This document shows positions 2,961 to 39,702 of a stretch of DNA of 48,863 nt, piece after piece (positions within the stretch are counted from its first letter, which is position 1; each line of letters opens with the position of its first letter). The stretch lies in contig WASQ01000129.1 in NCBI GenBank assembly GCA_009712185.1, forward strand, positions 1 to 48,863. Direction: 5' to 3'. The stretch is from Telmatospirillum sp. GTDB lineage: Bacteria > Pseudomonadota > Alphaproteobacteria > Rhodospirillales > Magnetospirillaceae. Both the position numbers and the translations under genes were made by a program. The notes beneath the pieces were generated by a model. It saw only the letters and a program-made list of their open reading frames with translations. It ran no database searches and was not told the DNA's origin.

Positions 2961-3224
2961 ATGACCTCCCACCTGGTTTCCGTCACCGCCGCTCCGGCTC
3001 CGGGCCTTTTGTCCCGTCTGACCATGGTCCTGGCCCGCCTCGAGATTCTTCCCCTGCAGATCTATGCGCGGAAGCGGTCCAATTCCGACGAACCCGAGAT
3101 CAGTGATGCCGACAGGCTGGAGGTCGACCTTTATCTTTCGGCCGAATGCTCCGAGAGACGGGACAGGCTGGTCGGATTGCTCCGGACCGTTGTCGGCGTC
3201 GAAAGCGTCGCCATCTCGCGCTGA
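2961..3224 (+). CDS. Small stand-alone ACT-domain protein (acetolactate synthase small-subunit-like, IlvM type)
   Basis: An 87-residue protein that is essentially one ACT domain: LVSVTAAPAPGLLSRLTMVL (first strand and helix), LEILPLQIYARKR, then LEVDLYLSAECSERRDRLVG and a closing strand VVGVESVAISR. This order resembles IlvM/IlvN, the regulatory subunits of acetolactate synthase, but no catalytic subunit is nearby. It may regulate a distant enzyme or act as a small-molecule sensor with the divergent Lrp-type regulator. The start is uncertain: ATG at 2961 or an in-frame GTG at 2943, neither with a clear ribosome site. It converges on the TctA gene, 31 bp away. Fold assignment is reasonable; function is inference. 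Confidence 0.65.
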   Translation: MTSHLVSVTAAPAPGLLSRLTMVLARLEILPLQIYARKRSNSDEPEISDADRLEVDLYLSAECSERRDRLVGLLRTVVGVESVAISR

Positions 3225-18126: not shown

Positions 18127-18159
18127 CCGCGGGACATCAGTGCAGCGGACAAGAAGGCC

Positions 18160-18189
18160 TGTGAAAGAAATCCACCAGTGGCTTCGGCG
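18160..18189. repeat. Hairpin repeat copy A, left part (5' exon flank of the group II intron)
   Basis: The 30 bases before the intron, joined to 20102-20115, form a 44-base unit that matches 40 of 44 positions of the reverse complement of copy B at 39610-39653. The unit folds as an imperfect nine-base-pair stem (GGCTTCGGC with GCCGGAGTC) with loop GTCCCT. The intron cuts it after the first loop base. Confidence 0.8.
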
Positions 18190-18546
18190 GTGCGTCAGGC
18201 AAGCTGACGCATTCCAGTTGGTGGAAGTCCAACCCAGGTAAAGGGGTAGCGCCCGGCCTGGAAGCGAGTGTTGCGTGCTGGTCGGTGACGATCAGGGCGA
18301 AGCGTACACAGCGATCGTGCGGGGTGGGTTATTGAGCCACGAAATCCACAAGTTCGTAGGGGCCGAGACTGTCGCCAATGTCGAAGGCGGAATGTGCGGT
18401 GCCGCCATGCAAGGCGCTGACGCCCTACCGGGGTCAAAGACCCCATCACGTACGAAAGGAATGCGTTGGAACCTGAGAGGTCTCACGTTTGACCGGTGGC
18501 GAATGACTGCCCCGGCCCGCATGGGGAAGGCGAGGAGCCGTAGCCC

Positions 18547-20082
18547 ATGATGCACGAACGTGAGAAGTCGGACCCCAACATAGTAGCGGAGAAGCCAGCG
18601 AACGGAGCCGGGAGACTGGCCGAGGAGTTGGTGGAGCGAAGGACGGGGACCGAGGGGAATGCGGACCAGCGAAGCACGCTCCGGTCTCAGGGCCGGGAGC
18701 GCGTGGCACAGGGATTGGCCCGCATACGGCAAGCAGCCAAGCAAGGGAAGGGGACACGGTTCACGACCCTGCTGCCCCACGTTCACATCGACCAATTCCG
18801 GGAGGCGTTTTATGCCCTCAAGCGGAACGCGGCGCCGGGAGTGGACGGGGTGACGTGGCGAGAGTACGAAGCCGATCTCGACAGCAAACTCGCCGATCTC
18901 TGTGATCGGGTCCACAAAGGGGGGCCGTATCACCCGCTTCCATCCCGCCGCCGGTACATACCAAAGGCGGATGGCAAGCAACGGCCGCTGGCAGTGGCCG
19001 CCCTGGAAGACAAGATTGTCCAGAGGGCGGTGCAAGAGGTGCTGAACGCGATCTACGAGGAAGACTTCCTCGGGTTCTCGTACGGGTTCCGCCCCAGGCG
19101 CAATGCGCATGATGCATTGGACGCTCTGATGGTGGGTATCGGCCAGCGGAAGGTGAACTGGATACTCGACGCCGACATCCAAACGTTCTTCGACACGGTG
19201 AGCCAGGATTGGCTCGTCCGCTTTCTGGAACATCGGATCGGCGATGTGCGCATGCTCCGCCTGATCCAGAAATGGCTGAAGGCGGGAGTCTTGGAAGACG
19301 GGGTGCTGACGGTCAATGAAACGGGGACGGGACAGGGTTCGGTGATTTCACCGTTGCTCGCCAACGTCTACCTTCATTACGTCTTCGACCTTTGGGCCGA
19401 GCGCTGGCGGAGGCGCGAAGCGACGGGCGACATGATCATCGTGCGGTACGCCGATGATCTGGTTGCCGGTTTCGAGCTCGAAGCCGATGCGAAGCGCTTC
19501 CTCGACGCGTTGCGCGCAAGGTTTGAGGAGTTCGCACTGTCACTACATCCGGAAAAGACCCGCATCATCGAATTCGGCCCCCATGCGGCGACCGACCGCG
19601 AGAGACGTGGGCTCGGAAAACCGGAGACCTTCAACTTCTTGGGCTTCACCCACATCTGCGGCAAGACGCGCGCGGGCAAGTTCCTGGTCAAACGGAAATC
19701 CCGTCACGACCGCGTCCGGACGAAGCTCAAGGACATCAAGGCCAAGCTGCGACGGCGCATGCACCAGCCCACCCCGGAAATCGGGAGATGGCTGGGGCAA
19801 GTCGTCAGAGGCTTCTTCAACTATCACGCGGTGCCGACGAATTTTACGACACTTGCGATGTTCCGTCGGCATGTCGCCAAGCTCTGGTTCCGTACGCTCA
19901 GACGCCGAGGAAACCGAGACCACACGACATGGGCGACGATGGAGAAGCTGACCGGCGACTTCTTTCCCAAACCGAAGATCCTCCATCCCTGGCCCGGACA
20001 GCGCTTCGCCGTCAAGTACCCGAGGTGGGAGCCGTATGCGGGAAAGCTGCACGTACGGTTCTGTGCGGGGGGCGCCCAGTAA
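18547..20082 (+). CDS. ltrA: Group II intron reverse transcriptase/maturase (no endonuclease domain)
   Basis: A 511-residue intron-encoded protein. Reverse transcriptase blocks run from about residue 70 to 350 and include APGVDGVTWREYEADL, RRRYIPKADGKQRPLA, FSYGFRPRRNAHDALDAL, GTGQGSVISPLLANVYLHYV and the catalytic MIIVRYADDLVAGF (YADD at 301-304). The X/maturase region follows (WLGQVVRGFFNYHAVPTN). No HNH endonuclease domain follows, so second-strand cleavage by the protein is not expected. It helps the intron RNA splice and retrotranspose. Two ATG codons in tandem (18547, 18550) follow AGGAGCCGTAG. Oddly the frame continues through domain V and into domain VI before its stop, so the last 18 residues are read from ribozyme RNA. 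Confidence 0.93.
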   Translation: MMHEREKSDPNIVAEKPANGAGRLAEELVERRTGTEGNADQRSTLRSQGRERVAQGLARIRQAAKQGKGTRFTTLLPHVHIDQFREAFYALKRNAAPGVDGVTWREYEADLDSKLADLCDRVHKGGPYHPLPSRRRYIPKADGKQRPLAVAALEDKIVQRAVQEVLNAIYEEDFLGFSYGFRPRRNAHDALDALMVGIGQRKVNWILDADIQTFFDTVSQDWLVRFLEHRIGDVRMLRLIQKWLKAGVLEDGVLTVNETGTGQGSVISPLLANVYLHYVFDLWAERWRRREATGDMIIVRYADDLVAGFELEADAKRFLDALRARFEEFALSLHPEKTRIIEFGPHAATDRERRGLGKPETFNFLGFTHICGKTRAGKFLVKRKSRHDRVRTKLKDIKAKLRRRMHQPTPEIGRWLGQVVRGFFNYHAVPTNFTTLAMFRRHVAKLWFRTLRRRGNRDHTTWATMEKLTGDFFPKPKILHPWPGQRFAVKYPRWEPYAGKLHVRFCAGGAQ

Positions 20083-20101
20083 CGGACGTCCCTACCGCGA
20101 C
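20029..20101 (+). ncRNA. Group II intron domains V and VI
   Basis: Domain V is the 34-base hairpin starting GAGCCGTATGCG, with GAAA-type apex region and closing ACGTACGGTTCT, the most conserved catalytic part of these ribozymes. Domain VI follows, with GCGG pairing to CCGC at its base and an unpaired A at 20094, eight bases from the 3' splice site, the usual branch-point position. Confidence 0.9.
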
Positions 20102-20115
20102 TCCCTGCCGGAGTC
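20102..20115. repeat. Hairpin repeat copy A, right part (3' exon flank)
   Basis: The 14 bases TCCCTGCCGGAGTC complete the hairpin repeat interrupted by the intron (see 18160-18189). They match 13 of 14 bases of the uninterrupted copy near 39610, and similarity stops right after them. Confidence 0.8.
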
Positions 20116-20460
20116 CGCCGCGAAATCGGCCGAATTGCTGAACTCCGGCTCCGCCGGACCACAGGCGCGGAGGCCTGTTCTACCGATTCTTTCACACGCC
20201 CTCCCGCCCGATGTTTGGCGAAGCCGACAGAGCAGTAAATCCGCCTCAGCCGACGGAGGCTTGCGCGGACCGGAACGATGGGCGGCCACGGGATTATGAC
20301 TGGAGAAAAGCCATACAGATCCGGAATTTTACATATACGAATTGAGTAATTTGGAAAAGGTATTTGTCAATTTTCCTTTTTGCAATAATAAATACTTGCC
20401 GGTGCCCAGGTCTGGATGTGGGACATCGTCGGATCGGATGACAAACCGGAGGCGGGGACA
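20116..20460. other. Intergenic region upstream of the M48-like gene
   Basis: No gene is seen. The left half is GC-rich, with a small hairpin GCCTC/GAGGC near 20240. The right half (20310-20400) is AT-rich, with the inverted arms GGAAAA and TTTTCC near 20353-20376, and probably carries the promoter of the M48-like gene, although I cannot assign -35 and -10 boxes with confidence. Confidence 0.45.
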
Positions 20461-39570: not shown

Positions 39571-39609
39571 AGAGGGGTGCCGGTTAGTATTGGGGCGTGT
39601 CGTGGCCTG

Positions 39610-39653
39610 GGCTCCGGCAGGGACGCCGGAGCCACTGGTGGAATTTTTTCACA
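39610..39653 (+). repeat. Hairpin repeat copy B (uninterrupted), probable terminator
   Basis: GGCTCCGGC-AGGGAC-GCCGGAGCC is a perfect nine-base-pair hairpin, followed by ACTGGTGGAA and six T at 39644-39649. It lies 40 bp after the stop of the polytopic protein gene and ahead of a convergent LysR gene, so it may end rightward transcription. The reverse complement of the 44-base unit matches the rejoined flanks of the group II intron (18160-18189 plus 20102-20115) at 40 of 44 positions, showing this is a dispersed repeat. Confidence 0.8.
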
Positions 39654-39702
39654 CCCCCGGACGCCCGCCCCACACCTTCAGTCAGGGACTCATTGGCCGA
39701 AC

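Follow-up and report, generated by a model that had tools for sequence, protein, structure and literature searches.

The window, by which we mean the whole 48,863-nucleotide stretch of Telmatospirillum sp. DNA analysed here, carries a class E group II intron that probably uses RNA-DNA pairing to home into a MITE-like element with inverted repeats and several hairpins that is present in many copies, a reading drawn from sequence comparison to which we give a probability of about 85%. Within the left end of the element, GTGG would be the partner of EBS2 (CCAC) and (T)CGGCG that of EBS1 (CGCCAA), and insertion would take place before the T that follows IBS1. As for other introns that lack an endonuclease, retrohoming would be expected to proceed into single-stranded DNA during replication. 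The repeats may help mainly as numerous and expendable targets, and their hairpins would be part of the anatomy of the target, not a signal that the intron recognises.

The intron occupies positions 18190-20101 of the forward strand and is delimited by Rfam matches, by its junction sequence and by the similarity of its maturase. It is complete, with the D1-D4 core of a group II intron (18224-18443, Rfam), domains V and VI (20027-20101, forward strand; RF00029, 56 bits, with the match ending exactly at 20101), ends of the GUGYG...AY type (GTGCG at the 5' end, AC at the 3' end) and an open reading frame for a reverse transcriptase/maturase of 511 amino acids (18547-20082, forward strand; TIGR04416), the 3' end of which overlaps domain V. 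The genes on either side of the intron encode an aldo/keto reductase and an M48 peptidase. The GTGCG start, the AC end and an insertion point one base into the loop GTCCCT, all described in the initial annotation, are seen in the sequence.

The maturase shares 55% identity over 319 residues (350 bits, tblastn) with a reverse transcriptase encoded by plasmid pRmeGR4b. According to the part of PMC5894124 available, this plasmid carries S.me.I4, a disrupted class E intron, and the matched reverse transcriptase is taken to be that of S.me.I4. Identity to the copy of the class D intron RmInt1 on that plasmid is 31%. Relatives in the PDB reach 127 bits; the GsI-IIC reverse transcriptase among them gives 126.7 bits by phmmer, a value that can be set only roughly against the 350 bits of the class E match, since the two come from different programs. 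RVT_1 is the only Pfam match, TIGR04416 is the best and the sole NCBIfam match above the cut-off, and profile searches of Pfam and NCBIfam found no endonuclease domain in the 511 residues. The intron thus resembles a IIB-like class E intron without endonuclease. The class assignment comes from similarity; a phylogeny, which had been proposed for the purpose, adds little on class, as the tree of 46 maturases holds one class E and one class D reference, with S.me.I4 outside the other 44 rows and the class D reference on a very long branch. The group IIC frame against which the intron was initially set does not hold. No class C maturase was indicated by similarity, and the insertion lies within a hairpin, not immediately past one of the terminator or attC kind. 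A group IIC assignment was rejected on the maturase similarity to class E and on exon structure. An intron of the same class is also present in the congeneric genome G001, and its 5' junction recurs on contig JARLJB010000123.1 of a Telmatospirillum MAG.

When the intron is removed, its target is a 127-bp element formed by 18159-18189 and 20102-20197. The left 31 bp (18159-18189, forward strand) consist of the terminal inverted repeat CTGTGAAAGAA followed by the 5' exon, and the right 96 bp (20102-20197, forward strand) contain further hairpins and the terminal inverted repeat TTCTTTCACAC. The first hairpin, derived from the fold of an empty copy at 39603-39656, has its 5' arm (GGCTTCGGC) at 18180-18188, where it overlaps IBS1, and its 3' arm (GCCGGAGTC) at 20107-20115, both on the forward strand. 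The empty copy itself (39610-39654, reverse strand) is truncated to one end and hairpin 1. The 44-mer made of 18160-18189 and 20102-20115 shares 40 of its 44 bases with 39610-39653 read in reverse complement, as the initial annotation had stated, against a best match of 27/44 in 100 Markov-resampled windows. The end of similarity at the edges of this unit is likewise real, but it marks the truncation of the copy at 39610-39654, which is why similarity is confined to 44 bases; the window copy continues to 20197.

With its 127 bp, its inverted ends (GTGTGAAAGAA...TTCTTTCACAC) and its many copies, the element appears MITE-like. By eye it folds into four hairpins, and an alignment of 11 elements from three genomes gives three hairpins and a terminal stem, with double changes in 7 of the 32 pairs of the alignment fold (three in hairpin 1, two in hairpin 4 and two in the terminal stem). 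A single element (L015) folded alone as single-stranded DNA is unusually stable, at a z of -3.8, with a best fold that is not a simple row of four hairpins. The outer flanks of the element are themselves repetitive. Several element copies in the genome of the window (L010, L014, L017, L018 and L173) contain runs of N, some of them beside low-complexity G or C, and these stretches look like assembly artefacts at a repeat.

In the genome to which the window belongs (G000; 6.1 Mb, 153 contigs), the 20-base tail of the element has 29 matches with at most three mismatches, against one for a reversed-pattern control, and the 24-base head has 35, against none. Tail, head and covariance-model rows together place whole or partial copies at no fewer than 56 distinct sites (at least 56, a lower bound counted among the matches listed). 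The head has no match in 40 other relatives, a set without G025, G028 and G034. A covariance-model search, in which the best 63 candidates per genome were scored (63 of 10,256 first-look candidates in G000) and a single locus can be matched on each strand, as in G002, returned at least 63 matches each in G000, G001, G002 and G034. Among the best 63 candidates of each further genome, it returned 47 in G028, 44 in G004, 14 in G031, seven in G017, six in G025, two in G027 and one in G071, and none in the other 44 of the 55 family genomes, which include the congeneric 0.9-Mb genome G003. As far as this search sees, the element appears to be frequent in two genera, that of the window and a sister genus, and almost missing from the rest of the family. 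The absence of the 44-base unit from the rest of the genome and from relatives, which the initial annotation had named as a danger to its proposal, was not seen.

How the intron may find this element can be read from its relatives. In the aligned 5' regions of related introns, a loop of domain I holds a six-base stretch complementary to the end of each intron's own 5' exon (its last six bases), and this alignment, a pairing test and a scan together locate EBS1 (CGCCAA) at 18373-18378 on the forward strand. Over 42 exon/EBS1 pairs, 227 of 252 positions pair when wobbles are included; shuffled pairs give a mean of 105 (sd 8.3) and a maximum of 139 in 10,000. Three of the 45 rows were dropped because of an unusual loop length, and two rows that lie at the 3' end of another intron (the second L075 row and L093) were kept and lower the score. 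A scan of 37 introns in which no position was specified beforehand gives EBS1 a z of about 14 and EBS2 a z of 9.7, the latter for pairing with exon positions -12 to -8; it used 60 permutations per test over many tests. The recognition expected of class E, a 6-bp EBS1-IBS1 pairing together with EBS2-IBS2, is found across the relatives, and the window intron itself has 5/6 and 4 bp. Its IBS1 is TCGGCG (18184-18189, forward strand), the very sequence for which pairing had been proposed in advance. EBS2 (CCAC, 18346-18349) faces IBS2 (GTGG, 18178-18181), both on the forward strand and placed by the covariation scan, with the four bases within the scanned stretch and their exact pairing picked by eye.

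Most relatives have a stronger EBS1 match than the window intron, and with the element consensus, CCGGCG, CGCCAA pairs at only 4/6 positions. The motif GTGGNNNNGGCGT alone is expected by chance 0.67 times per window. Given this frequency and the weak pairing, protein or further contacts, or selection against other sites, must contribute. The data as a whole fit recognition of class E targets by sequence, through base pairing of EBS1 and EBS2.

A second insertion of the window intron is visible in the same genome. Its 5' end on contig C130 reads GTGGCTCCGGCG↓GTGCG, where the arrow marks the insertion bond, lies in another, diverged element and is identical to the window intron over 50/50 bases; a 3' end on contig C80, CGCGAC↓TCCCTGCC, shows 95.7% identity over 140 bases. 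Both junctions use the same bond as in the window, and each lies at a contig end, so they may belong to one copy or to two. Among 39 distinct element heads, counted in the loci examined for this purpose, the intron occupies two; 17 empty heads keep GTGGNNNNGGCGT intact, and the remaining 20 have been altered or have diverged. Only two insertions of the window intron itself are known, and intron copy numbers in general are lower bounds because draft assemblies break at introns; most copies are visible as one end only.

A related intron in G004, a genome of the same genus, shows the same behaviour in a different repeat. This intron (GTGCGTCAGGAAAGCTGG...) occurs at one position of a hairpin-rich repeat with inverted ends (CAGGGCAATCGGGTGAAC ... 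GTTCACCCGATTGCCCTG) at all 11 of the 5' ends found, and the six 3' flanks viewed, out of 11 alike RF00029 matches, all continue the host repeat. The search pattern had two matches besides these 11, L320 and L321, which are IIC-like. EBS1 of this intron, readable in one copy as CGCTCA, pairs with TGAGCG at 6/6 positions. Comparison of the copies gives 99% identity for the first 60 intron bases (n = 11) and 100% for the last 75 (n = 6); for the flanking repeat halves the averages are 82% (range 74-94) and 86% (77-92), and the DNA outside is about 20% alike. Since the introns are nearly identical and the repeats have diverged, the introns must be younger and have entered pre-existing repeats separately. 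Empty copies of the repeat are found at L326, L334, L341 and L347.

These comparisons bear on how the intron came to lie in more than one element. With its inverted ends and its many dispersed copies, the element may be mobile, and it could have transposed with an intron inside and so multiplied a single insertion. This is highly unlikely, as the introns in G004 are 99-100% alike at their ends against 82% and 86% for the repeat halves, empty copies exist, and in G000 intron identities of 50/50 bases at the 5' end and 95.7% over 140 bases at the 3' end stand against element arms that are 23/31 (5' side) and 86% (3' side) alike. On this divergence between arms and introns, co-transposition of element and intron was rejected. 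Selection alone, with insertion over a wide range of sites and survival just in expendable repeats, is barely credible. A short target motif has chance matches genome-wide, the elements are numerous and the window insertion is intergenic, all of which such a filter would accommodate; the same bond is used in every examined junction of the window intron and of its relative in G004, and selection is therefore insufficient by itself. It may add to specific homing, which remains the preferred reading.

The proposal that a dispersed hairpin-repeat family serves as a landing site is borne out by the use of one bond in two element copies and extends to relatives of the intron; the part of it that pictured a group IIC intron directed to a hairpin loop is not. 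Homing guided by structure, with the hairpin as the recognised feature and its loop as the point of entry, in the manner of group IIC introns at terminator or attC hairpins, is improbable, although several observations speak for it. The window insertion lies one base inside the loop of a hairpin whose empty copy (39603-39656) folds stably, with z of -4.3 and -4.8 on the two strands. An intron in G034, a genome of the sister genus, immediately follows the 127-bp element's terminal hairpin at 4/4 of the 5' ends found, and we take it to be IIC-like from its sequence type and its place. In addition, shuffles of the same composition fold somewhat less stably than the actual 5' exons of class E relatives (median rank 0.27, with 5/41 at or below 0.05). 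Compared with windows of the same loci, by contrast, these exons are ordinary (median rank 0.70, with 0/40 in the most stable 5%). The test used the 40 bases upstream of the intron at 42 loci, 40 of them with local controls and 41 with shuffles, and the 40 represent 39 distinct places, as L068 and L295 are the same place. The position of the site also varies, being by eye the loop in G000, the 3' arm of a small hairpin in G004 (GGCGCGTTGAGCG↓CC) and the 5' arm in G025. The maturase resembles class E, and because most of IBS1 forms a stem arm, folding of the hairpin would hide IBS1 or compete with EBS1.

Hairpin recognition is thus unsupported both by 5' exon stability and by the changing position of the site between loop and arm, and we conclude that the hairpins are probably part of the target repeats and not a recognised signal. 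Across class E, a hairpin is not required. The shuffle comparison leaves room for a weak structural preference of class E introns. The part of PMC7923331 available notes that upstream structure had not been reported to matter for IIB introns, and raises the possibility that it does; such a role finds no clear support here for class E. Copies in hairpin-free targets, which were to count against the landing-site proposal, do occur among the class E relatives, but not for the window intron with its two insertions.

The 127-bp element family is used by further introns. In G025, a genome of the sister genus, a class E intron lies near the other end of the element (CTGTGAAAAAATTGGTGGCG↓CCGGCCTCCGTGCCGGC). 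Its maturase is 71% identical to that of the window, and its EBS1, CGTCAC, pairs with GTGGCG with one wobble. A third type of intron sits inside domain VI of this intron and forms a twintron (end of L065 on contig C77, start of L267 on contig C30), which is why the class E junctions fall on two contigs, the link between which is inferred. For this third type, 14 3' ends were found in the genome, many at contig ends. The maturases of the window and of G025 are not sisters in the tree, and the shared element family may therefore have been reached twice, and not through inherited targeting.

The IIC-like intron of G034, a different species from G025, occurs at either end of the 127-bp element. 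Eight 3' flanks were viewed out of 13 RF00029 matches; L248, L262 and L265 continue into the element tail and L259 into part of it, and in the other four the element is unrecognisable. Its 5' and 3' ends presumably belong to one intron. Besides the four 5' ends, the pattern matched L307, which is chance-like, and L312 and L314, where terminator-like hairpins precede a further IIC-like intron. In G000, L297 is likewise an intron of IIC-like look, after a terminator-like hairpin with a T-run. An earlier pattern for class E 5' ends gave 21 matches, mostly GC-rich and chance-like, and was replaced by a later one.

Class E introns were also observed in other surroundings. An older remnant in G000 (L002/L309, contig C135, 5265-6169) begins within a palindromic sequence that is also repeated but differs from the element (AAAGGGGTCAGTG...CACTCTGA↓), and a further copy of that palindrome truncates it. 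In G023, a class E intron (L068/L295) lies in repeat-like sequence beside GGTGACAGTGCA / TGCACTGTCA, and in G024 class E introns (L067, L294 and L304) adjoin repeat-like sequence of the CACCAAGGACACCAAG type. The intron start at L093 and an intron-start-like sequence at L116 directly adjoin the 3' end of another intron, in tandem. The 5' exons of three class E introns (L107, L108 and L090) resemble one another and end in TACTGG↓ or TATTGG↓, perhaps a coding motif that is conserved. The remaining class E sites, in Azospirillum, rhizobia and others, are varied.

Five class E introns (L100, L104, L106, L117 and L119, with 5' ends near 3135-3138) stand directly after LexA-box-like sequences, which are imperfect in L117 and L119; we take the consensus of the box, with the insertion point, to be CTGT-N8-ACAGT↓. 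The four that are in the tree form one clade (100/100), and EBS1 pairs with the box at five or six of six positions. The next gene was identified as imuA at L100 and as sbmC at L119, and none of this type was identified at L104, L106 and L117. These introns might be under SOS control.

Homing into multi-copy elements through retuned base pairing is a known principle. In the available part of PMC5894124, RmInt1 of Sinorhizobium meliloti homes into ISRm2011-2. Like the window intron, it is a IIB-like intron without endonuclease that recognises a multi-copy mobile element, its natural target, through EBS/IBS pairing; it differs in belonging to class D, in its maturase (31% identical) and in a target that is a coding insertion sequence and not a short hairpin repeat. 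The introns of Thermosynechococcus elongatus, as far as described in the available part of PMC2882425, form families with diverged EBS and different targets, which is also seen for the window intron and its relatives, and enter a conserved site in an IS200-family element as well as other introns. They belong to another lineage, and short hairpin repeats are not named among their targets in that part of the paper. Group IIC introns, in the available parts of PMC4424553 and PMC7923331, are found at terminators and attC sites, and share with the window intron the use of multi-copy hairpin targets largely outside genes; they use a hairpin and a short IBS1, in contrast to EBS1 and EBS2 in the class E intron of the window. 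In Pseudomonas putida, 2/9 group II intron copies lie at REP sequences (PMC1525189, available part), which ties group II introns to dispersed palindromic repeats there too, although for a minority of copies and in a table row that gives neither target pairing nor class. A literature search, mostly without subscription papers, found no class E introns in MITE-like repeats, no such repeats shared with IIC-like introns, and no class E introns at LexA boxes.

The location of EBS1 and EBS2 in class E introns makes their targets predictable and testable. Group II introns are thought to persist at sites where they do little harm, such as insertion sequences, terminators, attC sites and other introns. 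To our knowledge, class E has not been reported to use hairpins. The present findings suggest that short hairpin repeats serve as such low-harm sites for class E, and that a second type of intron uses the same repeats in another way. An intron and the repeat that hosts it are not of the same age, so that the copies within one repeat family record the relative timing of invasion. On three class E sites in two repeat families and two genera, we lean somewhat towards the broader view that dispersed hairpin repeats are a shared and renewable niche, in which class E introns would retune EBS1 and EBS2 to abundant repeats and IIC-like introns would use the end hairpin, class E as a whole then being a set of specialist lineages for multi-copy motifs, the clade at LexA operators included.
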